From positions 1 to 64,000 of the forward strand of contig JABFGB010000006.1 in NCBI GenBank assembly GCA_013112715.1: a stretch of 64,000 bases of DNA. Direction: 5' to 3'. The stretch is from Chloroflexota bacterium (GTDB taxonomy: Bacteria; Chloroflexota; Anaerolineae; Aggregatilineales; J027). Below are positions 1-48,239 of this stretch, one piece after another (position 1 is the first letter of the stretch; every line of letters starts with the position of its first letter). The notes under the pieces were generated by a model that saw only the letters and a program-made list of their open reading frames with translations, made no database searches and was not told the origin of the DNA. Both the position numbers and the translations under genes were made by a program.

Positions 1-115
1 ACGGTCACCCCCGCCACCACGACGATCTCCACCGCCGCCGCCACGACGATCACCGCCGTAGCCACCACGACGATCTCCGCCACCGCCGCCACTACGACCA
101 CCCCCGCCGCCGATG
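1..115 (-). repeat. Tandem repeats encoding RGG/GDRRGG tail of PNPase
   Basis: Imperfect GGC/CGT-rich units of roughly 18-24 bases, in frame with pnp. Read on the minus strand they give repeated G-D-R-R-G-G with one Y interruption, preceded by a GGGGGRSGGGGG stretch. RGG tracts are known RNA-binding low-complexity segments. The array is cut by the window start, so copy number is unknown. Confidence 0.85.
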
Positions 116-2301
116 CCCCGGTCATTTTGACGGGCCTCTTCGAGTGTCCAGCCTTCAAGGACAGCTTGACGGCTGAGGCGTACCTTGCCAGAACCCCGGT
201 CAATATCTGTGACCATGACCATGATTTCATCACCGACATGGAATTCATCGCGGATACGTTCGACGCGCATATCGGAAAGTTGGCTGATGTGAACCATGCC
301 ATCCGTGCCGGGCAGGAATTCAACCCATGCGCCATAATCTTCGATGCGGGTGATCTTGCCGGTGTAAATCCGTCCGGGTTCGGGTTCCTCAATCAACCCC
401 AAAATCATGTCGCGGGCACGTTCGGCTCCGGCGGCGTCTACGCTGGCAATGGAGACCAACCCGTCTTCAGCAATTTCAATCACTGTGTTGGTTGCTTCTT
501 GAATACTGCGCACGGTCTTGCCGCCTTGCCCAATGACCGCACCAATGCTGTCCACATTGATCTTGAGGGTAAGGATACGCGGGGCATAGGGGCTGAGTTC
601 GGCGCGAGGTTCGGGAATGACACTTTCGATTAGATCAAGAATTTCGAGGCGGGCGTCCAAAGCCTGTGAAAGGGCGCGTGCCATGACGTCGTGCGGAACC
701 CCGCTGATTTTGATGTCCATTTGCAGGGCGGTAATCCCCATACGAGTCCCAGCGACCTTGAAGTCCATATCCCCGAGATGGTCTTCCATGCCCTGAATAT
801 CGGTTAGGACGAAATATTGGTCACCATCTTGGATGAGACCCATCGCAATACCCGCCACCGGACGCTTAATCGGAACACCCGCATCCATCAGGGCCAATGT
901 AGAAGCACACACTGACCCCATACTGGTGCTGCCATTGGAGGACATGACTTCACTGACCACGCGCACGGTGTAGGGGAATTCTTCTTCGGAGGGGATGATC
1001 ACACGCAGGGCGTTTTCTGCCAGCGCCCCATGTCCAATCTCACGGCGCTTTGGCCCACGCAGCGGGTTTGCTTCACCCGTAGAATAGGGCGGGAAGTTGT
1101 AATGGTGCATGAAGCGTTTGTTATCTTCGGGGTGCAGACCATCCAACAATTGGGAATCTCGCGAAGTCCCCAGCGTGCAGATACTCAAGACTTGGGTTTG
1201 ACCACGCTTGAACAAACCCGACCCATGTACACGCGGCAGCAGGTTGACTTCGGCGGCCAGCGGACGGACTTCAGTTAAAGAGCGACCATCGGGTCGAACA
1301 CCTTCTTGGGCAATACGACGGCGCACTTCCGTTTTGACCGCTTCAGAAATATAGGCGCGAATTTCAGAGGCTGAGGTGGCGGGTTTTTCACTCGGTTCAT
1401 CCTCTTCAGCCAACACCAGACCCCGATCATCGTCGTCGAGCAAATCCGCAACTACTCGCTCCTCAAGATCGCCGAGGGCGTCATTGCGTTCGCCTTTTTC
1501 AACGCGAGTTGCAATAATTTCGGCAATGTCTTGACCCACACGGGCCATCACCCGATCCCGCAAGGTTGCATCTTTTTCGACGGAGGTGAATTCGCGTTTG
1601 GGTTTGCCAACTGCTGCTTGCATTTCTTTTTGCAGGGCAATGACGGGCTGCATACTTTCGTGCGCCAAACGCAGCGCTTCCAACATGGTGTCTTCGGGAA
1701 CTTCATTGGCAGCACATTCGACCATCAAAATGGCCTCGGCTGTACCGGCCACCCGTAGATCAAGGGCACTATGTTCCATTTCTGGAATGGATGGGTTAAC
1801 GACCAACTGCCCGTTAATCAGGCCAACACGCGCACCTGCAATTGGGCCATTCCAAGGAATGTCGCTGATGGTGAGGGCGGTACTGGCGGCAATGATGCTC
1901 AACATATCTACATCTACAACCTGATCGTGGGCCAGCGACATCACGATCACTTGTACTTCGTTGTGCAAGTCTTTGGGGAACAAGGGACGCAGAGGGCGGT
2001 CTGTCACACGTGAAATCAGAATGCTGCGTTCACTCGGACGACCTTCGCGGCGCAGGAAAGAACCGGGAATGCGCCCAACCGCATAGAGGCGCTCTTCGTA
2101 ATCTACGCTCAATGGCAGAAAATCAATGCCTTCACGAGCATTCGCACTCATCGTTGCCGTGCAAAAAAGAACCGTGTCACCCATCTGGGCCACGACCGCT
2201 GCCCCGGCTTGTTCCGCGAGCTTACCTGTTTTTAAAATGATTTCTTTATCGCCGATGTACGTTGAAAAAACTTTGTCGGCTGGCATTACACTATGAACCA
2301 T
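1..2301 (-). CDS. pnp: Polynucleotide phosphorylase, 3' end beyond window
   Basis: 3'-5' exoribonuclease that phosphorolyses RNA to nucleoside diphosphates; a trimeric core enzyme of RNA turnover. The reverse strand is open for 767 codons from ATG at 2301 to the window edge with no stop. The visible order fits the family: first RNase PH domain (starts MVHSVMPADKVFSTYIGD; GRIPGSFLRREGRPSE is the family signature), an all-helical linker, a second RNase PH domain (EVRPLAAEV, GSGLFKRGQTQ), then KH (VIGQGGKTVRSIQE) and S1 (GRIYTGKITRIEDYGAWVE). The S1 domain is followed by an unusual Gly/Arg tail with repeated GDRRGG units that is still running at base 1. It lies directly downstream of rpsO, the classic rpsO-pnp order. 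Identity is certain; the final length is unknown. Confidence 0.98.
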   Translation of the reverse strand, partial: MVHSVMPADKVFSTYIGDKEIILKTGKLAEQAGAAVVAQMGDTVLFCTATMSANAREGIDFLPLSVDYEERLYAVGRIPGSFLRREGRPSERSILISRVTDRPLRPLFPKDLHNEVQVIVMSLAHDQVVDVDMLSIIAASTALTISDIPWNGPIAGARVGLINGQLVVNPSIPEMEHSALDLRVAGTAEAILMVECAANEVPEDTMLEALRLAHESMQPVIALQKEMQAAVGKPKREFTSVEKDATLRDRVMARVGQDIAEIIATRVEKGERNDALGDLEERVVADLLDDDDRGLVLAEEDEPSEKPATSASEIRAYISEAVKTEVRRRIAQEGVRPDGRSLTEVRPLAAEVNLLPRVHGSGLFKRGQTQVLSICTLGTSRDSQLLDGLHPEDNKRFMHHYNFPPYSTGEANPLRGPKRREIGHGALAENALRVIIPSEEEFPYTVRVVSEVMSSNGSTSMGSVCASTLALMDAGVPIKRPVAGIAMGLIQDGDQYFVLTDIQGMEDHLGDMDFKVAGTRMGITALQMDIKISGVPHDVMARALSQALDARLEILDLIESVIPEPRAELSPYAPRILTLKINVDSIGAVIGQGGKTVRSIQEATNTVIEIAEDGLVSIASVDAAGAERARDMILGLIEEPEPGRIYTGKITRIEDYGAWVEFLPGTDGMVHISQLSDMRVERIRDEFHVGDEIMVMVTDIDRGSGKVRLSRQAVLEGWTLEEARQNDRGIGGGGGRSGGGGGDRRGGYGGDRRGGGGGDRRGGGGDR

Positions 2302-36013: not shown

Positions 36014-38641
36014 ATGGATTTTGACCCAATTTCATATGGTCTCGGCTTTCTCTCAGCTTCGGGCATATCCCTTGGCCTGTGGCGTTATCGTGCCCATCTT
36101 GCCAATATGCAGGCCAGTGCCGAAGGGCAAGCCGAACGAGGCCGTGAATTTCTCAAGCGCACCGCTGATGCCCGCTATCTCACTGACTTGACCGTCTATT
36201 TGCAGCAGTATCACATCATGGGGAGTCAGGTGAATCTCTCCGACGTGCTGATTGAACCGCTGGTTTTGGCAGAGTCGAATCATGCGGTGTTAATGGAAGA
36301 AGATGAGGATGCGCTGGTCGGTGGGCCGACACGGGTCATCCCCCGTCCCCATGATTTTCCGGAACTTTATGCCCCCTTTAATCTGGAAACCATCCCATTA
36401 GCGGATTTGGTGGTGGGCGATCCCTATGTGGCGATTCTCGGTATCCCCGGCAGCGGCAAAAGCACGGCTCTCGCCACTTTGGGGTTGATGGCAGTTGGCG
36501 CAGTGGAATTCCAATCTGACCAAGAACGCTTGGATGAAGCGATTGAGACTCAATTTAAGGGCCTGTCGGATTCTGAGCGGGAACGTCGTCTGAAAGAATT
36601 TCAGGAAGCCCAAAAACGCGCCATTGAGCAACTGCGCATCCTGAAAAAATCGGAGACCGAAGGGACGGATGTTTTAAATCCCCCCAAAGCCGACCCGAAG
36701 AAATTCTTCCCAGTGTTTTTCCATATCGGCGACATTGACCTAGATTTGAATTTATACGGCATTGAGGTTGACCCCGCCGAGCCGATTATCCATGCCTTCC
36801 AGCAATATATGACATTGGTGACAGGGCAAGCCGCACCACCGGTGGTTTATCAACAATTGGGGCAAGGCAATTGTCTAGTGTTGATTGATGGCTTTGACGA
36901 TTTGTTCCCAGCCGATCTGCCTAAAGCCTATATGTGGCTACGCAATTTTATGGAAGCCTACGGGCACAATCGCATTATCATTACTGGCCCAGCGACGGGT
37001 TATGATCCTTTGTTGCAGTTGGGTTTCACTCCGACCTTTATCAAACCATGGTCGCCACGTGATGTCGAAAATTCGATTCAACGCTGGATTCAAATCTGGC
37101 CCTCACTCGTCGGCGCACGCGAAAGCCGCAATAAGAAAAAGGCCGGGGTTATCCAGATTGATGACAAGACCCGCACCCGTCTGTTAGCCGATAATCGCAA
37201 CCGCACCGCCCTCGAAATCACCCTCAAGACCTATGCAGCGTTGGCAGGTGAGGAACAAGAATTGGGACGGCGTGGCTGGTTTGAGCGATATGTGCGTAAT
37301 TTTATTCCTGCCGATGTCGCCCCGGCCCCATTAATCCTGCGAGAAATTGCGATGGTTATGCAGGATAAAGGGGTGCAGTTGAATGAAGCACAACTGACCT
37401 CGATTGCCAGTACCCATTTGATGGATGCCCAAGACAAGCCGATTACCAATATTGACCAATTTGTGAAGGGCATCATCAACAGCGAGTTGATGGTCAAACG
37501 GGCAGGTGATGCCTATGCTTTCCGTCATCCACTGATGATGGCCTATCTCGGCGGGGAACGGCTTATTCGAGATATGCGCCAGCGCTTGGCCGAAGTTGCG
37601 GCCCTCCCCAATTGGCAACAGTCGGTTGGATTTGCCGCTGCGGAATTGGATTTGACAACCGCCGTCTATCAAAAACTGTCAACTCCACCCGATTTATTGT
37701 TCTCCAATCTGTTTGCGGTAGTACGCTGGTTGCCCGATGCGGCGCCATCGGCGAGTTGGCGGGCTGAGATTTTGAAGCGATTGGGGGCGGCACTCTTGGC
37801 AGTCAGCCAATATCCGACCATCCGCGAACGGGCATTGGCGGCGTTGATTGCCTCCCGCGACAAAAATATCCTGTTTATTTTGCGACAGGCCATTCGCAAC
37901 GCTGACCCTGTGATTCGTAAACTGGCCTGTATTGGCATGGGGGCATTTGGCGATACCGATGCGCTTAAAGATTTGCGCCCGATGTTGGTAGATGATGATA
38001 CCGATGTCCAGTTGGCAGCAGGGCTGGCATTAGGCGCGATTGCCACCGATACGGCGTTGGAGTACATGGTTGAAGGCCTATTGCAAGGCGAAGAACCCCT
38101 GCGTCAAGCGGTGGCTGAGGCGTTGGCGGCTATTCCCGGTCATGGACATGATGTTTTGCGTGACGCGATTGACCACGACGACATGATGGTGCGACGGGCA
38201 GCCGCATTTGGTTTGGCCCGTATCCCCACCACGTGGGCATTGGTCGGGCTGTATCGGGCCATGTTGGAAGATGGGCAGTGGTATGTGCGCTCGGCAGCGG
38301 AACGGGCTTTTGCGATGGCCCGCGCTCCCGAACGAACTGGCCCACGTTCATTCCCCCGTATTGAGCAACTTTCGTGGCTGGCGACCTATGCGGCGGAAAT
38401 GGGCGAGGGTGTACCTGAAGGGGATAAGGCTCGTCAATTGGTGGTGCGTGCGCTGCAAGAGGCCCAACCCCCACGCCGTAAACGTGCTGCCTATACGTTG
38501 GGGCAAGTCGGCGGTTTGACTGGGATTAAACCCCTCTATCTGGCTTTAATGGACAAGGATGAGCGTGTGCGGACGGCGGCCTATGAAGCCCTCAGCATTG
38601 TGCAAATGCGGGCCTCTGCACCACTTCCCGGTTTGACCTAA
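36014..38641 (+). CDS. NACHT-like NTPase with C-terminal HEAT repeats
   Basis: 875 residues. The N-terminal hydrophobic segment (YGLGFLSASGISLGLWRY) suggests a membrane anchor. The NTPase module has Walker A GIPGSGKST (143-151) and Walker B LVLIDGFDDL (288-297), the acidic D-G-x-D-D/E pattern of NACHT STAND NTPases, and a helical half with FERYVRNFIP. From about residue 560 on come PBS/HEAT repeats (LKDLRPMLVDDDTDVQLAAG, VRRAAAFGLARIPT). GGGGGAT lies before ATG 36014, 22 bases after the zinc-ribbon gene. STAND proteins sense a signal and oligomerise; here the signal is unknown, and the neighbours do not point to antiphage defence. Confidence 0.8.
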   Translation: MDFDPISYGLGFLSASGISLGLWRYRAHLANMQASAEGQAERGREFLKRTADARYLTDLTVYLQQYHIMGSQVNLSDVLIEPLVLAESNHAVLMEEDEDALVGGPTRVIPRPHDFPELYAPFNLETIPLADLVVGDPYVAILGIPGSGKSTALATLGLMAVGAVEFQSDQERLDEAIETQFKGLSDSERERRLKEFQEAQKRAIEQLRILKKSETEGTDVLNPPKADPKKFFPVFFHIGDIDLDLNLYGIEVDPAEPIIHAFQQYMTLVTGQAAPPVVYQQLGQGNCLVLIDGFDDLFPADLPKAYMWLRNFMEAYGHNRIIITGPATGYDPLLQLGFTPTFIKPWSPRDVENSIQRWIQIWPSLVGARESRNKKKAGVIQIDDKTRTRLLADNRNRTALEITLKTYAALAGEEQELGRRGWFERYVRNFIPADVAPAPLILREIAMVMQDKGVQLNEAQLTSIASTHLMDAQDKPITNIDQFVKGIINSELMVKRAGDAYAFRHPLMMAYLGGERLIRDMRQRLAEVAALPNWQQSVGFAAAELDLTTAVYQKLSTPPDLLFSNLFAVVRWLPDAAPSASWRAEILKRLGAALLAVSQYPTIRERALAALIASRDKNILFILRQAIRNADPVIRKLACIGMGAFGDTDALKDLRPMLVDDDTDVQLAAGLALGAIATDTALEYMVEGLLQGEEPLRQAVAEALAAIPGHGHDVLRDAIDHDDMMVRRAAAFGLARIPTTWALVGLYRAMLEDGQWYVRSAAERAFAMARAPERTGPRSFPRIEQLSWLATYAAEMGEGVPEGDKARQLVVRALQEAQPPRRKRAAYTLGQVGGLTGIKPLYLALMDKDERVRTAAYEALSIVQMRASAPLPGLT

Positions 38642-40544: not shown

Positions 40545-41362
40545 AACGCCGAATTCAATGGCTTTCGACTAAGCGTGCATTGGTGTCGGGGGTGGCCCTG
40601 CTCTCATTTTTAGTGGTGACTAGCAGCACGTGGGCGTTGGTACGCGGCGGCAATGGCCCAACCGATGCCACATGGGAACGTATCCACCGCGATGATACGT
40701 TGGTTGTTGGCATAGACCCCAGCTTTCCCCCCTTCGGCATTTTTGGCAAAGATCGCGTTGAGGGACTCGATGCGGATTTGGCGCAGGCCCTTGCCGAAAA
40801 AATGGGCGTGGCGCATGTGCGATTGGTGGTCTTGGGTTATGACGGCCTGTATGATACGCTGGCGCTTGGTTTTGTAGATGTGTTGATTTCAGCCCTGCAT
40901 CCCGAAGCGCGGCGCAAAGGTGTAGTTCTCTACACTAAGCCTTATTTTGATGCTGGGCAGGTATTTGTAGGTCATGCCGATACCCCCCTGCCCGAAGATT
41001 TGGACGGCTTGACCGGCGCAACGTTAGCGGTTGAATTGGGGTCAGAAGGCGACAGTCAGGCGCGACGGTGGTTAGAGGATTTTGAGCAACCGCCATTTGA
41101 ATTGCAACGTTTGATGGCCTCTGAAGATGCAATGCAAGCGATTTTGGAAGGTCAGGATTGGGCGTTGGTAGATGCGATCAGCGCTCGCCTGTTTGTCAAC
41201 GATCACCCTGAATTAGTCGTTAGTGCGCTACCCCTCATTTCCGACCCTTATGTAATGGCAGTGCGACGCAGTGATTGGCGACTCTATCTGGAACTCAACC
41301 AAGCCCTTGATGCCCTGCGACGGTCAGGTCAACTGGACGAAATCATTGCACGCTGGCTTTAA
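40541..41362 (+). CDS. Family 3 extracellular solute-binding protein
   Basis: 273 residues. One N-terminal hydrophobic segment (ALVSGVALLSFLVVTSSTWAL, signal or anchor) is followed by the SBP_bac_3 fold: LVVGIDPSFPPFGIFGKD, GLDADLAQALAEKMGV, DVLISALHPEARRKGVVLYT. This class binds amino acids or similar small polar ligands. No ABC permease or ATPase gene is nearby, so it may act as a sensor rather than in transport (inference). The start overlaps the previous stop as ATGA; its own TAA overlaps the convergent gmk stop within TTAA. Confidence 0.85.
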   Translation: MKRRIQWLSTKRALVSGVALLSFLVVTSSTWALVRGGNGPTDATWERIHRDDTLVVGIDPSFPPFGIFGKDRVEGLDADLAQALAEKMGVAHVRLVVLGYDGLYDTLALGFVDVLISALHPEARRKGVVLYTKPYFDAGQVFVGHADTPLPEDLDGLTGATLAVELGSEGDSQARRWLEDFEQPPFELQRLMASEDAMQAILEGQDWALVDAISARLFVNDHPELVVSALPLISDPYVMAVRRSDWRLYLELNQALDALRRSGQLDEIIARWL

Positions 41363-42378
41363 TCAGTTAGTGGCATGACCTCGGTCTGGGTCAAGATTTC
41401 CATGATATGGGCATCTAAATGTAGATTGGCGATAGGATTAAGCACCCATCCTTCTGGAAGCTCATGCAGTTCATGTGCCAAATGCAGCACGTAGATAAAA
41501 TTCGTCTCAATAGCAGTCGCTTTGCGTGTCACGCGAATCAATTGGGCTGGCTCAAATCCAATATCCACTTTGCGGGTCGGCGAATCGGGCCGAGTTGGAT
41601 AAATCTCCACCCCTAATTCGGCCCGCAGATGAGCTTGAATAGCTTCAAAAGGGAGTTTCTCGGCAGGTACTTTGATTTTGGGGAATTCGCCATGCTTTTG
41701 CAGCAGGCATCCATTTTGAACGACCAGCCCAGTGACGTACTGCTGAATGAGTGCCGGGTTCCACCCTATGGCAGCATCGGCGGCGAAACGGGTTTGGGCA
41801 TTTTTCTCACATTCGTCAGTGACAATCCCAATCATCTCTTGGATGCTAGCCTCAAGTTGGCCCTCTTGGTTCACAATCACATAGTCGTATTCATCGGCAA
41901 ATTCATGTTCAAATGCGGCCCTGCGCAGACGTGTATTCAATTCCTCGTCAGAGACATCCGAGCGTTTGCGCATTCGATTTGCCAATAGGTTTTTGTCGCC
42001 AGCCTCGATAAAAACCAAAACGACCTGATCACCAAATTCTTGCTTTAATTGCATCGCCCCTAAAACGTCTATATCGGCGATAAGCGGTTGGCCGTTGCGG
42101 ATGGCATCTTGGATGGTGGCACGCGGCACGCCATAGACACTGGCATCGTGGATAATTTGCCATTCGATCAAGGCTTTTTCGAGGATACGGCGGCGAAATT
42201 CGGCTGCGGAGAGGAACTCATGTTCACGTCCTTCTTGCTCATCGGCACGTGGAGGGCGCGTTGTGGCGGTGGGTAACTGCTTGAGGTGCGGCATCGCCTT
42301 TAGGACACCTCGCATGATTGTGTTTTTTCCAACACCCGCTGGGCCAGATAAGATAAACAATAATCCACAGGGCTGCAT
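41359..42378 (-). CDS. gmk: Guanylate kinase with extra C-terminal domain
   Basis: 339 residues; a normal guanylate kinase is about 200. The first ~190 residues are a Gmk domain that phosphorylates GMP to GDP: P-loop SGPAGVGKNT (11-20, with Asn in place of the usual Ser), TATTRPPRADEQEGREHEF for GMP binding, DIDVLGAMQ, and RMRKRSDVSDEELNTRL in the lid. After a helical linker, about 130 residues form an added domain (LIQQYVTGLVVQNGCLLQ, AIQAHLRAELGVEIYP) that looks like a NUDIX fold without an intact NUDIX box. No stop or start separates the parts. Confidence 0.88.
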   Translation of the reverse strand: MQPCGLLFILSGPAGVGKNTIMRGVLKAMPHLKQLPTATTRPPRADEQEGREHEFLSAAEFRRRILEKALIEWQIIHDASVYGVPRATIQDAIRNGQPLIADIDVLGAMQLKQEFGDQVVLVFIEAGDKNLLANRMRKRSDVSDEELNTRLRRAAFEHEFADEYDYVIVNQEGQLEASIQEMIGIVTDECEKNAQTRFAADAAIGWNPALIQQYVTGLVVQNGCLLQKHGEFPKIKVPAEKLPFEAIQAHLRAELGVEIYPTRPDSPTRKVDIGFEPAQLIRVTRKATAIETNFIYVLHLAHELHELPEGWVLNPIANLHLDAHIMEILTQTEVMPLTD

Positions 42379-42560: not shown

Positions 42561-45500
42561 TCAGTCTACGATACTGATGTTGTCAATGAACCACCCGTCG
42601 TCCACTTGAGCGTCTAACATGGCATCCAAACGGAAGCGGATGGTGATATTACTGCCAGCGAACGAGGTCAGGTCAACGGTACGCTGTGTCCATGCCGGGT
42701 TATCGGTGGCACGGCGATAGACCTCCGTCCATGTAAACCCTTCATCGGTCGAGACTTCGATGATGGTGTAGTCAATCAAATCCAGCGATACACTGTCTTG
42801 CCAGATGAGGGCTGGGTTGACCGTACCTGCCAAACTCACTTGGCCTTCCAACGTTACGCTGGTGTCGGTCAAATCCTCATAGTCAACTGGCGTACCACCC
42901 GGGCGGTTGCTGGGTGGGCTGTCATGGAAGACCAAGCTGCCCGTGTAGAGACCCAGTTGGAAGAGCGCACTTCCGGTATTTTCATAGTAGTCAACCGTGA
43001 TGGTGTTCGCCCCGGCGGGGAATGTGTAGCTGAAACTGTAGAAGGTAGACGGGTCAAGGTTGGACCCGCTATTACAGCTTGTCCAATAGGCGGCAGGACT
43101 AATGAGAGTTACTGGCCCTGTACCGTTCTGATTCGTGACTTGGAAAGCGTCGCTTCGATAACCCATGATCTGATATGTCGTCGGATAGTCGAGTTGGATC
43201 GTCATCTGGAAGCGTGCCCCCCATGTGTCGCCAGCGTTGATGCCAACCCCGGCGGGATAGTTGGTGCCCCAGTTGAAGTCCAAACGATCTGGATAGGTGG
43301 TCGTGGTCGTGGCCGTGCCGAGGTTGGCACTCGCTGAACAGACACCCGTCACATTGTTGTACCAGCGGGCGAGCCATGGGCCGGGGCCGATTAGCGAACC
43401 CGTTGAGAACTCCTGACGGAAGTTCACTTGGATACGTGCCATCCCGGTGTTTTCAACATATTGAATTCTGAGTACGTGATCACCAGCAGGGAAAAGGCGT
43501 GTCACGGTAGTGGTTGAGCCGCCGGAGCAGCCCCAGTTATTGACAAAGCGGACACCGTTGTCGTACATTCGGATACCGTCATCGGCAAAATAGCTGATGA
43601 TCAGTGTCGTATCTACCGGGAAATTCACGGTGCGCGTGAACTCAATGGCGAATAGGTCGGTGGTGGGTGATACATAGGCTGGCCCGGAGTTGTTGCTCCA
43701 GTCGAACGCGATTTGACCACCCGCAACCGGATAGGTCCCGCGATTGGTCGAACCCGATGGCAACGAGTTGACATTCAGATTCGGGAATGAGCAGGTGGCA
43801 CTGGTTGGGAAACGTTGGATGTAGGTTGCGTCCCATGTGCCCGGCCCCAAGGCATCGGTGTCATTGCCACTGCCAATGCTGCGCGGTTCCAGTACGGTTC
43901 CCCAGTTGTGATCGTACACCCAGTCGCCGGGAGAGAGAGTTTCCATCGTCTCAAGATAGGGGTCGGCGGTGTATTGGGTTTCGATGCCATTACGATCCAC
44001 CACTGAGATGTCATCAAGATACCAACCATCGTCGGGGGTACTCCCGGCAAGCGCGTCCAAGCGGAAACGGATACGGATGATCTGGTTGATGTAAGGAACC
44101 AGATTGACCTGTTGACGTACCCAACCCCGATTGGTACTGCTCAAGCGGGTGGTTGGCCCCAATGTTTGGGTAGATGTCCAGCCAATGGGCTGCCAACCCG
44201 TTTGCGGAACGCCTTGATTATTGACTCGCATATACTCAACCACTACACGGTCATTGGTACCCATCTCGTAGTGTTCCCAATAGTACAGGGTTGGCTCAAC
44301 TGTGCCTGTAAGATTAATGTTGTAGCGCAGTTCAATGATGGGGTTCGTGTCCGTCGTGTAATTGCCCGCAGGACTTTCGGTAATCGCCGCCACGCCACTG
44401 TGGTGGTCATTGGTCGAGACTGCCCAACTACCCCCTACATACCAGTTGTTGAGGTTGCCTTCAAAGTCGTCGGCAAATGGCAGGTTGATGGTTAAGTCGG
44501 TGCTGGCCTCACGAATGCAGATGTCATCAAGATACCAGCCATCACGAACGTCGGAATTGACACGTGCATCCAAACGGAAGCGGAGACGCAGGTCGGTTTG
44601 CCCAATCCATGGCGAAAGTTCAATCACATCGCGCTGCCAACTGTACATATAATTGAAGTTCGGCGAATAGTGAATATCCCAGCGCGGTAGAGTGGTTTGT
44701 CCATTCGTGAACGACCAAAGATTCGTGTTCGTCCAGTTCGCGCCACCGTCGGTCGAGACTTCGACATGAATCGCATCGCCCACGCCGATTTCCCAGCGGT
44801 GCCAGAATTCTAAGACAGGACGGACAACGGTTGGGAAGCCGCTCGGTGGTGGATTGCTGAGATCAATGTTCGGGATCAATTCAAGCGTGCTATCACTGTT
44901 TGGCGCGTAGTTGCCAGCAGGGCTGTCAGTCCATGCCTGAGTCCCCGCATGGGAAGTGCTGTTGGTGACGCCCCAATTGCCGCCTGCGATCCAGTTCCCG
45001 CCACCCGCTTCAACATTGTCGCACCAGTTTGGACGGATGCTCCCGCTGGGCCGATTGCGGATTTGGAAGTCGTCTACGTACCAGCCATCGGCTTCCGCAC
45101 TGTTGTTACTTTGGATACGGAACCGTAAGTAGATACGGCTGCGGCGTGCAGCATCATTCACGACATCGGCGGGAATGGGCACAACGATTTGACTGTAGGC
45201 CATTTGCGTCTGATTTTGCGCCAGATAGGTTGCCGTTCCATTCGGCGTAATCATGCGCCAAGTGGTGCGGTCATGCGAAATTTCCAGATAAATCGCATCC
45301 CCGGAGGCAAGATCGTAGCTGTGCCAGAAAGCGAACTGTGGTTCGTCCAGTACAGCCGTGCTGAGATCAATACGCCCGTCCAGTTCCAAAATGTTGTTAT
45401 TGCTGGGGGCGTAGGGTCCCGCTTCGCTGTCGGTCCAGCCGGTGGGCGAGCTGTGGGGATTTTCAGAGGATAGTGTCCAGCCACCGCGATTCACCCAGTT

Positions 45501-46973
45501 GAGATCGTTATCCATCGCATCCGAGAAACCAAGCGTGTAGACAGTTTCAATCCGGTTGTCTACGGTGATGTCATCCAAATACCAGCCATCCGCATTAGTG
45601 GCGGAAGAATCGGTAATTAGGATAAACCGGATTTCAATATACTGACCTCGGAAGTCTTGGGTTGCCCCCAGATCGTCCGTAAAGTTCGCAAGGTCAAAAC
45701 TTTGACGATTATACGTTGGGGAAGCTGTTGGCCCAGTATGTACAGTACGATCATACCAGCGCCCTAGATTGGCGCTGCCGGCCACGCTGACAACCGCACG
45801 GTCATATTGGCCGAGGTCGAAAGCGTCCGAGAATTCCAAGAAGGGATTGTTGATGCCCTGTAGTGTCAGGTTGATACGACCACGATAGCGCAAAATACAG
45901 TTTTGACCACTGGTATAGGTGGTATTGATGGGCGGGCTGTCATGCCAAGCGGTGGGTGGTGAGTTGGGTAGCCAAGTGACCAACGACCAGTTGCAGTCAG
46001 CCGTATTGCCCGATTGGCCGGATTTAAACAAGCTGACTTCGAGCATCGCGCCGCTGCCTGTGTCACGGTGTTGAATCACAATTGGCACCGAACGGGTAGA
46101 AGGATTGACCCAATTGACCTCGACATAGTTCGTCCCCGTTGGGCTGTAGTTCCAGTCTTGGCCGTTAACCAGTTGTGTGCTTCCGTCCACAAAAATACGT
46201 ACCCCATCGTCGCGGCGATAGCGGAAGGTATAGGCACCTTGGGCAAGCATGACGGAGTTTGAAAACCGCGAACAGAAGTCGGTACTGACACCAGCCGCAG
46301 GTGAACTACCAGTCGTAGTCCAATAGGCATGGGTCGCACGCGGGAATTGAATCAGTTGTTCCTGCGTCGTGGTCGTCGGAGCCGTTGTATAGCTGCCATC
46401 CGTCGCGCTGAAAATGTTCCCGTTGTTACAGGTAGACAAATTCCACCATTGGGCATTCCATGGCGCTAGGTTCGGATCGGTAAAAACATCTGCGAAATCG
46501 GTTTGCCAGTTGTTAGGATCAGTAGCTGTATCCTTCCATGGGGCATCCCGATCTTGGTCTTGCGGTGTGGTGGTTGGTCCGGCGGTTGCCCCACTAGGTA
46601 ACGGTGTAAATGTATAGGTCGCAGTCGCATTAGGGGCGCTGGTGGGTGGCAAACCCGGATTATTCTGCGGGGCGGGTGTGTTGGTGATGAGATCAACATC
46701 AGCCGGGGTGTAGGAGGCCACCGCAGTGACCAGATTCCAAAATTCATTTGCTTCCAATGGGTCTTGCGGAGTTGTAGTTTGACCCAACAGATCATAAACC
46801 GTTCGGCTAAACACGTTGCCAATCGCTGGCCCCGTGATGGTCAAAATGGCGATAAGGCCAATAAAGGCCAACGCCAAAATCATCACGTATTCAAGCAGCG
46901 CCTGACCACGTAGTTTGCCCCCACGTTTGGAAGTGGGTGTTTTTCTGACCTGTTTGGCTTGATGATCGGACAT
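42561..46973 (-). CDS. Giant surface protein with type IVb pilin-like N-terminus, PA14 and jelly-roll repeats
   Basis: 1470 residues. A basic leader (KRGGKLRG) is followed by QALLEYVMILALAFIGLIAI. Gly23 followed by Gln-Ala-Leu-Leu-Glu-Tyr puts Glu at +5 and Tyr at +6 of a prepilin peptidase site, as in Flp/Tad pilins. After a Thr/Pro linker comes a PA14-like domain (YTFRYRRDDGVRIFVDG, about 240-320). Four MAM or immune-inhibitor-A-like jelly rolls follow, then two more PA14-like units and a last jelly roll. Each jelly roll ends in DGW[YF]xD[DN], five copies in all. It is secreted and probably fibre- or surface-attached; carbohydrate or adhesion binding is likely. GAGAGGA precedes the ATG. Confidence 0.8.
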   Translation of the reverse strand: MSDHQAKQVRKTPTSKRGGKLRGQALLEYVMILALAFIGLIAILTITGPAIGNVFSRTVYDLLGQTTTPQDPLEANEFWNLVTAVASYTPADVDLITNTPAPQNNPGLPPTSAPNATATYTFTPLPSGATAGPTTTPQDQDRDAPWKDTATDPNNWQTDFADVFTDPNLAPWNAQWWNLSTCNNGNIFSATDGSYTTAPTTTTQEQLIQFPRATHAYWTTTGSSPAAGVSTDFCSRFSNSVMLAQGAYTFRYRRDDGVRIFVDGSTQLVNGQDWNYSPTGTNYVEVNWVNPSTRSVPIVIQHRDTGSGAMLEVSLFKSGQSGNTADCNWSLVTWLPNSPPTAWHDSPPINTTYTSGQNCILRYRGRINLTLQGINNPFLEFSDAFDLGQYDRAVVSVAGSANLGRWYDRTVHTGPTASPTYNRQSFDLANFTDDLGATQDFRGQYIEIRFILITDSSATNADGWYLDDITVDNRIETVYTLGFSDAMDNDLNWVNRGGWTLSSENPHSSPTGWTDSEAGPYAPSNNNILELDGRIDLSTAVLDEPQFAFWHSYDLASGDAIYLEISHDRTTWRMITPNGTATYLAQNQTQMAYSQIVVPIPADVVNDAARRSRIYLRFRIQSNNSAEADGWYVDDFQIRNRPSGSIRPNWCDNVEAGGGNWIAGGNWGVTNSTSHAGTQAWTDSPAGNYAPNSDSTLELIPNIDLSNPPPSGFPTVVRPVLEFWHRWEIGVGDAIHVEVSTDGGANWTNTNLWSFTNGQTTLPRWDIHYSPNFNYMYSWQRDVIELSPWIGQTDLRLRFRLDARVNSDVRDGWYLDDICIREASTDLTINLPFADDFEGNLNNWYVGGSWAVSTNDHHSGVAAITESPAGNYTTDTNPIIELRYNINLTGTVEPTLYYWEHYEMGTNDRVVVEYMRVNNQGVPQTGWQPIGWTSTQTLGPTTRLSSTNRGWVRQQVNLVPYINQIIRIRFRLDALAGSTPDDGWYLDDISVVDRNGIETQYTADPYLETMETLSPGDWVYDHNWGTVLEPRSIGSGNDTDALGPGTWDATYIQRFPTSATCSFPNLNVNSLPSGSTNRGTYPVAGGQIAFDWSNNSGPAYVSPTTDLFAIEFTRTVNFPVDTTLIISYFADDGIRMYDNGVRFVNNWGCSGGSTTTVTRLFPAGDHVLRIQYVENTGMARIQVNFRQEFSTGSLIGPGPWLARWYNNVTGVCSASANLGTATTTTTYPDRLDFNWGTNYPAGVGINAGDTWGARFQMTIQLDYPTTYQIMGYRSDAFQVTNQNGTGPVTLISPAAYWTSCNSGSNLDPSTFYSFSYTFPAGANTITVDYYENTGSALFQLGLYTGSLVFHDSPPSNRPGGTPVDYEDLTDTSVTLEGQVSLAGTVNPALIWQDSVSLDLIDYTIIEVSTDEGFTWTEVYRRATDNPAWTQRTVDLTSFAGSNITIRFRLDAMLDAQVDDGWFIDNISIVD

Positions 46974-47351
46974 AATCCGTTATCCTCTCCTAAGCCTACC
47001 TAAATGACATTAAACAGATAGGATGTTTTTGCATGAACGTTTTTGCTTAGGCTAAGTCCCTAATCGCTGAATTGCTTCGAGATAGCACACAAGCATAGGG
47101 GTTGAAAAAATCTTCTAACCACCTGTCTTAATGTTACCTGACTACCCGGCAAATAATCGCTCATATTTGTAGAAAATTTGTCGGAAGTCCTTGACAAAAA
47201 GGCCTGACAAAAGGCCGCTACAACATAGCCGCTTCACACTTTTGCAAGGCGTGTAGGGTGTGTTAGCCTAGAGACTGTAGGTACGATTGCACCCACAGAA
47301 TTAGCTTAGTTCAAATTGAATTTGGGGGCAATCTATTTAGGAGGCAAATCA
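46974..47351. other. Gene-free spacer between giant pilin-like gene and folD
   Basis: About 378 bases without a credible ORF; it must hold the divergent promoters of both neighbours. Visible pieces are a short palindrome CTTAGGCTAAG near 47047, two AAAAGGCC copies around 47197-47214, a 13-base palindrome CAAATTGAATTTG (47312-47324) just before the folD ribosome binding site, and a TTGACA at 47191 with no -10 at the right distance. No riboswitch or RNA gene could be recognised. Confidence 0.5.
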
Positions 47352-48239
47352 ATGGCAACTCTTATTGATGGTAAAGCCGTCGCGGATCGTTTGCATCATC
47401 AAACAGCCGAGGCAGTTGAAAAAATGGGTAAGGAGCATGGCATCCGACCCGGTTTGGCGGCAGTTTTGGTAGGGGAAAACCCCGCTTCGCAGACCTATGT
47501 GCGGATGAAACGTAAGGCCTGTGCCGAGGTAGGGATTGAATCGTTCGGTTACGAATTACCCGCCAGTATCACCCAAGCTGAATTAGAAAATGTGGTGCGT
47601 GATCTGAATGCCGACCCGCGTGTACATGGTATTTTGGTACAACTGCCCCTACCCGATCATCTCGATTCTGAAGCGGTTTTGAGCCTAATTAGTATCGAAA
47701 AAGACGTGGACGGCTTTCATCCACTGAATATCGGACGGTTGGCGATGAAAGGCCGTGAACCGCTCTTTATGCCCTGTACGCCGCACGGTTGTATGGTGCT
47801 GCTGGAGGATGTTGGGGTCAAATTTGATGGCGCGAACGCGGTCGTGTTAGGACGCAGCAATATTGTTGGGATGCCCGCCGCGCTGATGCTGGTTAAACGT
47901 AATGCTACTGTTACCATCGCCCACAGCCGCACCCGTGATTTACCCGGTATCTGCCGCCAAGCCGATATTTTGATTGCGGCGGTGGGTCGGGCCGAAATGG
48001 TCAAGGGCGATTGGGTTAAACCCGGCGCGACGGTAATTGATGTCGGCGTCAATCGTGTGGATGACCCCACCAGCAAAAAGGGTTATAAGCTGGTTGGGGA
48101 TGTGGCCTTTGATGAAGCCAAAGAGGTGGCCGGCGCGATTACCCCCGTCCCCGGTGGCGTTGGCCCGATGACGATTGCCATGCTACTCAAAAATACCCTC
48201 AGCGGCGCAGAGTTGATGCTGGCGAAAACAGTCAAATAG
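47352..48239 (+). CDS. folD: Bifunctional methylenetetrahydrofolate dehydrogenase / cyclohydrolase
   Basis: Interconverts methylene-, methenyl- and formyl-tetrahydrofolate with NADP(H). 295 residues, normal length. The active-site Lys lies in [10 protein letters not shown]. Other signatures are [19 protein letters not shown], the cofactor motif [14 protein letters not shown] and the C-terminal [13 protein letters not shown]. The start is ATG 47352, with AGGAGG 8 bases upstream; the frame extends to 47316. It is a single-gene unit. Confidence 0.97.

Follow-up and report, generated by a model that had tools for sequence, protein, structure and literature searches.

A giant Chloroflexota protein that begins with a predicted Flp pilin module and is probably a Tad-handled modular pilin

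The window analysed here comprises the first 64,000 nucleotides of contig JABFGB010000006.1 from a Chloroflexota bacterium of the order Aggregatilineales (assembly GCA_013112715.1). On its minus strand lies an open reading frame (ORF) that starts with ATG and encodes a giant protein of 1470 residues (Table 1). An initial annotation, made from the letters of the window, had described a basic leader ending in Gly23, a following QALLEY stretch with Glu+5 and Tyr+6, one hydrophobic helix, and three PA14-like and five MAM-like modules, each of the latter closing with DGW[YF]xD[DN]. We found the leader and the site residues in the ORF as described, and AlphaFold2 models of the N-terminal and C-terminal parts of the giant (mean predicted local distance difference test scores of 74 and 72) show a single long helix at residues 25-63, followed by a disordered Thr/Pro-rich linker and jelly rolls. 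The ten Cys residues lie in pairs within modules (182/234, 327/359, 651/819, 1061/1149 and 1212/1300), as expected for an exported protein.

The pilin processing site proposed in the initial annotation is present, and it turned out to be part of something larger than a signal: judged by its alignments, the N-terminus of the giant is a complete Flp pilin module. Of the five small Flp pilins in the genome, four are near-identical and 48 residues long (two on contig C9, one each on C2 and C40), and one has 51 residues (C2). From Gly23 onward the giant aligns without gaps to its own 48-residue Flp, with 21 of 40 positions identical. The alignment score of the helix against this pilin is 104; shuffled helices score 33 on average and 66 at most, and since none of 5000 reaches 104, the resemblance is not due to chance. 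HHalign joins the N-terminal alignment of the giants to the same small pilin at 99% (E 2.2e-18) over 43 columns, which is almost its full length, and the helix end GPAIGNVFS is common to the giant and the small Flps.

The same region is the best preserved part of the protein. An alignment of 28 homologues, which come from several families of the order and were drawn from frames that already bear the motif, shows no exchange at Gly-1, Gln+1, Glu+5 or Tyr+6. Among loci drawn by similarity over residues 1-660, the leader is present on the Anaerolineae frames whose start is complete. The leader-less frames in that draw are pieces at contig ends (L122, L134 and L149), the second fragment of a gene that is split (L131), or members of other lineages, for example one from SAR202 (L154) and one from an unplaced Chloroflexi with a Sec-like start (L159). 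Identity to homologues from other genera is 51-73% in the pilin helix, compared to 23-47% in the modules and 9-36% in the leader, so that the helix exceeds every other part of the giant in conservation. Between the window gene and its orthologue in genome G002, which are 80% identical over residues 1-660, residues 23-63 differ by 10 synonymous and no nonsynonymous codons, and codon differences of this kind indicate that the helix is under purifying selection.

Beyond the linker, the modules of the initial annotation are recovered by two routes. Pfam finds PA14 (PF07691, 53.1 bits, cut-off 24; best stretch 1087-1184, in the second PA14 domain) and InhA-like_MAM (PF20773, 53.7 bits, cut-off 26.9), and structure prediction, which the initial annotation had suggested as a check, yields MAM folds and, at ~169-322, 1043-1191 and ~1200-1345, PA14 folds in fold comparison. 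All five GW[YF]xD[DN] endings are in place (Table 1). The arrangement is refined in one respect. The first MAM match spans residues 143-474 with ~148 residues aligned and a PA14 fold (168-324) in the gap, and the C-terminal MAM fold likewise spans 1003-1470 with ~143 residues aligned and two PA14 domains interrupting it, which argues that the PA14 domains are inserts in MAM-1 and MAM-5. The predicted array thus consists of five MAM/reelin-like jelly rolls and three nested PA14 domains. PA14-3 is for the most part missing from the other families, with only ~31 of its 150 positions aligning in most relatives. Since the Asp-Asp pair of Ca2+-dependent sugar-binding PA14 domains is kept in two of the three, PA14-1 and PA14-2, glycan binding is plausible.

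Table 1. Features of the giant gene, its neighbours and the small flp genes of the genome. Coordinates are window positions unless a locus handle is given; residue numbers refer to the giant; rmsd, root-mean-square deviation.
Feature	Position	Strand	Basis or remark
Giant modular Flp-type pilin/adhesin (probable), 1470 residues	42561..46973	-	ORF; orthologues in order
Shine-Dalgarno-like AGGAGAGGA, 9 nt 5' of ATG	46983..46991	-	read from sequence
Basic leader, residues 1-23, ends Gly23; predicted prepilin peptidase site G23^Q24	46905..46973	-	variable sequence, invariant Gly-1
Flp pilin module (predicted), residues 24-63, single long helix	46785..46904	-	HHalign and model
Linker, residues 64-142: conserved EFWxxVTAVASYTP, then Thr/Pro-rich low-confidence stretch	46548..46784	-	
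MAM-1, first part, residues 143-168	46470..46547	-	MAM match 143..474, ~148 aligned, meprin MAM Z 15.8, rmsd 2.5
PA14-1, residues 169-322, nested in MAM-1, D255-D256	46008..46469	-	6m8m Z 12.9, rmsd 2.6, 138 aligned
MAM-1, second part, residues 323-475	45549..46007	-	fold comparison; GWYLDD 463
MAM-2, residues 476-642	45048..45548	-	reelin repeat matches to residue 640; GWYVDD 630
MAM-3, residues 643-822	44508..45047	-	sequence basis: PF20773 best stretch 733-844; GWYLDD 812
MAM-4, residues 823-995	43989..44507	-	sequence basis: 38% identical to MAM-3; GWYLDD 983
MAM-5, first part, residues 996-1043	43845..43988	-	MAM match model 4..471, 143 aligned, meprin MAM Z 14.3, rmsd 2.8
PA14-2, residues 1044-1192, nested in MAM-5, D1131-D1132	43398..43844	-	6m8m Z 13.5, rmsd 2.8, 140 aligned, model 44-192
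PA14-3, residues 1193-1346, nested in MAM-5, S1274-D1275 replaces Asp-Asp	42936..43397	-	6qe7 match 45..346
MAM-5, second part, residues 1347-1470	42564..42935	-	fold comparison; GWFIDN 1460
folD, divergent neighbour, marks conserved locus	47316..48239	+	orthologue in 22 stretches of relatives
Guanylate-kinase-domain gene, downstream synteny marker	41359..42378	-	PF00625 93.3 bits
Four 48-residue flp genes, three genome places, identical or ~2 residues apart	L103:4922-5374, L104:8481-8624, L105:4120-4263		

One family of relatives (f5) carries the same PA14/MAM array on a different pilin. In genomes G013 and G020 of this family, proteins of ~1760 and ~1860 residues start with a TadE module (PF07811, 46.4 and 47.5 bits) instead of Flp. 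A 157-residue TadE-like pilin lies directly upstream of the variant in G020, and in G013 a PF13400 Tad-domain gene lies near it, with a broken TadE-like start in between. Within the stretches around the relatives' giants, TadE/TadG-like neighbours occur only with this variant. The same cargo on two classes of Tad pilin would be difficult to account for if the Tad machine did not handle the array, and the TadE-linked variant is an independent link of the array to Tad. In the similarity scan over residues 1-660, MAM proteins from outside Chloroflexota were without the leader, many of them with a Sec-like signal start, which marks the Flp graft as specific.

The initial annotation had stated that no tad genes lie nearby, and had suggested a genome search for Tad genes and a prepilin peptidase. 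Within the window the statement holds; 89 kb from the giant on the same contig, we found a Tad motor cluster (C6:135,987-142,098) with CpaB, TadZ (with a receiver domain), TadA, TadB and TadC. In addition to the small Flps, the genome has a TadE (320 residues) and a TadG with a vWA domain (688 residues) on contig C36, and three A24 prepilin peptidases (on C18, C28 and C4). The C18 enzyme (L045:4600-5934) has both Asp motifs intact and is likely of the TadV type. With the cluster and a readable A24 peptidase in hand, this is not a genome that lacks a Tad system or peptidase, the outcome that the initial annotation had named as fatal to its proposal. A secretin (RcpA/CpaC of diderm Tad systems) was sought by PF00263, with no match in the genome, in keeping with a report that Chloroflexota lack the canonical markers of an outer membrane (PMC13319060).

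Further observations concern these Tad-related loci themselves. A second large Tad pilin adjoins TadE and TadG on C36 (L043:2-1852): it has a TadE module, is more than 617 residues long with at least 550 residues beyond the module, and runs off the contig. The C18 peptidase is extended at its N-terminus by a region that weakly matches GH18 (22.2 bits, under the cut-off). In the A24 paralogue on C4 (L046:6555-7370), which adjoins a large NTPase-like gene, the GxGD motif reads GWGN, and the protein is probably catalytically dead.

We next consider how widely the giant occurs. In 22 stretches, from relatives of four families, a folD orthologue stands beside it on the opposite strand, and in 17 stretches the guanylate-kinase-domain gene follows it. 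A profile of the N-terminal 660 residues matches 98 of the 154 genomes of the order and 45 of its 61 genera (E <= 1e-20), most frames being 1000-2000 residues long. The giant is therefore an order-wide orthologue, fixed beside folD in four families. Named relatives with matches are Anaerolineae metagenome-assembled genomes such as CFX5 and DTUCFX7, and one more distant match is labelled Aggregatilineales. A search for the Flp leader over the relatives returned mainly two size classes, ~50-125 and ~785-2480 residues, with few between. Outside the order, leader frames are mostly shorter than 200 residues and reach 522 at most among the frames listed. Tad pili are widespread in the phylum: in a sample of 400 genomes, TadC was found in 245 and the leader profile in 247. 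For those listed genomes that belong to the same class but not to the order, a hand count gave 36 with both, 2 with the leader only, none with TadC only and 15 with neither.

Taken together, these data suggest that the giant is probably a Tad-handled modular pilin, that is, a Tad (type IVc) minor pilin. The initial annotation had proposed a minor tip pilin, and the presence of the Tad machinery and a peptidase, the invariant site residues, the conserved helix and the exchange of Flp for TadE all speak for the minor pilin, with its position remaining the more conditional part. The basic leader would target the protein to the membrane, where the genome's A24 prepilin peptidase would be expected to cut after Gly23. 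The freed Flp helix would then be handled by TadA, TadB and TadC like a small Flp and enter the pilus. In the Tad pilus of Caulobacter, the corresponding Glu and Tyr residues join inter-subunit hydrogen bonds and the pilin C-terminus reaches outward (PMC11067988); by the same geometry, Glu+5 and Tyr+6 of the giant could make such bonds, and its outward C-terminus would display the ~1400-residue PA14/MAM array as an adhesin. Given how bulky the protein is, and by analogy with other systems that place modular pilins at the tip, it would most likely sit at the tip or be a rare subunit. With no secretin found, no outer-membrane pore need limit the passage of the folded array. A more specific proposal, in which a subunit of the single-helix Flp class and not a TadE/F/G complex carries the Tad tip adhesin, so that the giant would be an order-wide 160-kDa glycan-binding grapple, a separate means of equipping Tad pili and a candidate glue of Chloroflexota flocs and granules, is tentative and we consider it rather unlikely as a whole.

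Several observations weigh against a Tad-handled pilin. The subunit mass of 160 kDa is far above that of known Flp subunits. The Pfam Flp model (PF04964) does not pick up the giant at E <= 1; since it scores even the small Flps of this genome below its cut-off (31.2 and 25.5, compared to 32.2), this model is uninformative here. The Flp module is likewise unnamed by the Pfam and NCBIfam scans, and the sole NCBIfam match of the giant, far under the cut-off, is to an M36 peptidase model, in its MAM part. The gene is away from tad genes in its own genus, and in sequence spanning at most 20 kb around each of the relatives' giants, phmmer searches with the genome's own CpaB, TadA, TadB, TadC, TadE and TadG found no tad genes adjoining them. 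In favour of a Tad-handled pilin, every giant-bearing genome among 61 relatives is TadC-positive and none of the four TadC-negative genomes has a giant, but this co-occurrence is weak as a test since these four all belong to one family. Some Tad-positive genomes of family f3 are without the giant, which makes it an accessory at most.

The distance from tad genes in the own genus would suit a plain membrane-anchored adhesin, in which the Flp-derived N-terminus is a retained signal-anchor that never enters a filament and for which a single N-terminal hydrophobic helix suffices. However, a Glu at +5 within the helix and a Tyr at +6 are invariant across families, and an anchor needs neither. Together with the invariant Gly-1 and a helix more conserved than the exposed modules, this argues against a plain anchor, and the replacement of Flp by TadE in one family would be left unexplained. 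We therefore regard the anchor as unlikely, though as the best of the alternatives. Less probable still is a giant that undergoes prepilin peptidase cleavage and Tad-dependent export but is then released or forms a short pseudopilin stub and not a lasting subunit; this would require the same sequence features, but the pilin module is full-length and matches the major-pilin class, and the sequence holds no hint of release. Membership in the archaellum-like operon on contig C28, which comes with a separate prepilin peptidase, a TadA/FlaI-type ATPase and a protein of the FlaJ type, is very improbable, as the pilin of that operon starts with GQSALETAII whereas the giant has EY and the Flp ending GPAIGNVFS, and as the Flp leader profile and TadC occur in nearly equal numbers of genomes (247 and 245 of 400).

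The operon on C28 (L044:567-10681) encodes an archaellin-like GQSALETAIILI protein alongside the FlaI- and FlaJ-type proteins and the prepilin peptidase. An archaellum has already been reported in a member of the Chloroflexota (PMC13319060).

As a Tad-handled pilin, the giant would stand between several known systems. In common with small Flp pilins it has the leader, the G^xxxxEY site and the entire helix including the closing GPAIGNVFS. Small Flps are ~50-80 residues long and have no further domain (PMC12075869), whereas the giant has 1470 residues and eight extra domains and is for this reason not filed as an ordinary Flp pilin. With its Flp module and PA14 and MAM matches above the Pfam cut-offs, it has the build of a modular type IV pilin. 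In Streptococcus sanguinis, modular pilins such as PilB and PilC have established adhesive functions; there, too, a functional module is grafted on a pilin module, and PA14 is among the modules listed (PMC8179133). The pilins of that survey differ in their IPR012902 (class III signal) module and in size, with an extreme of 860 residues, while the giant is Flp-type with eight domains, some of them nested. Tip-borne modules have also been proposed for the TadG/CpaL tips of Tad pili and for Kil tips (PMC12607857, PMC12075869). Those are, like the giant, large Tad-linked pilins that expose C-terminal domains; they are of the TadE/F/G type with vWA or other domains, in contrast to the giant, which is of the Flp class and has its gene at folD.

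The MAM modules resemble the jelly rolls of PF20773, meprin and reelin in fold and in the closing DGWYxDD, but form a non-catalytic tandem broken by PA14 inserts. The PA14 domains resemble the sugar-binding PA14 domain of an RTX adhesin, Marinomonas MpAFP (6m8m), in fold (Z 12.9-13.5) and, for PA14-1 and PA14-2, in the Asp-Asp pair. RTX adhesins reach the surface via RTX type I secretion. A literature search, which covered few subscription journals, found no published giant Flp pilin. With a giant array joined to the Flp class, the modular-pilin principle would also cover the smallest type of pilin and a much larger cargo, and one may ask how a subunit of 160 kDa is dealt with by a Tad machine. 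The giant is moreover a concrete adhesin candidate for bacteria that have been proposed to structure the flocs and granules of wastewater reactors (PMC9942424).

Two minor observations were made along the way. Genus g31 has a giant orthologue in one genome (G519:C15:210617-212866); the other listed g31 genomes are without it, and two of them, when tested, were without TadC. Elsewhere in the window, positions 36014-38641 encode an 875-residue protein with a nucleoside triphosphate-binding region and HEAT repeats, which gives a weak NACHT match.

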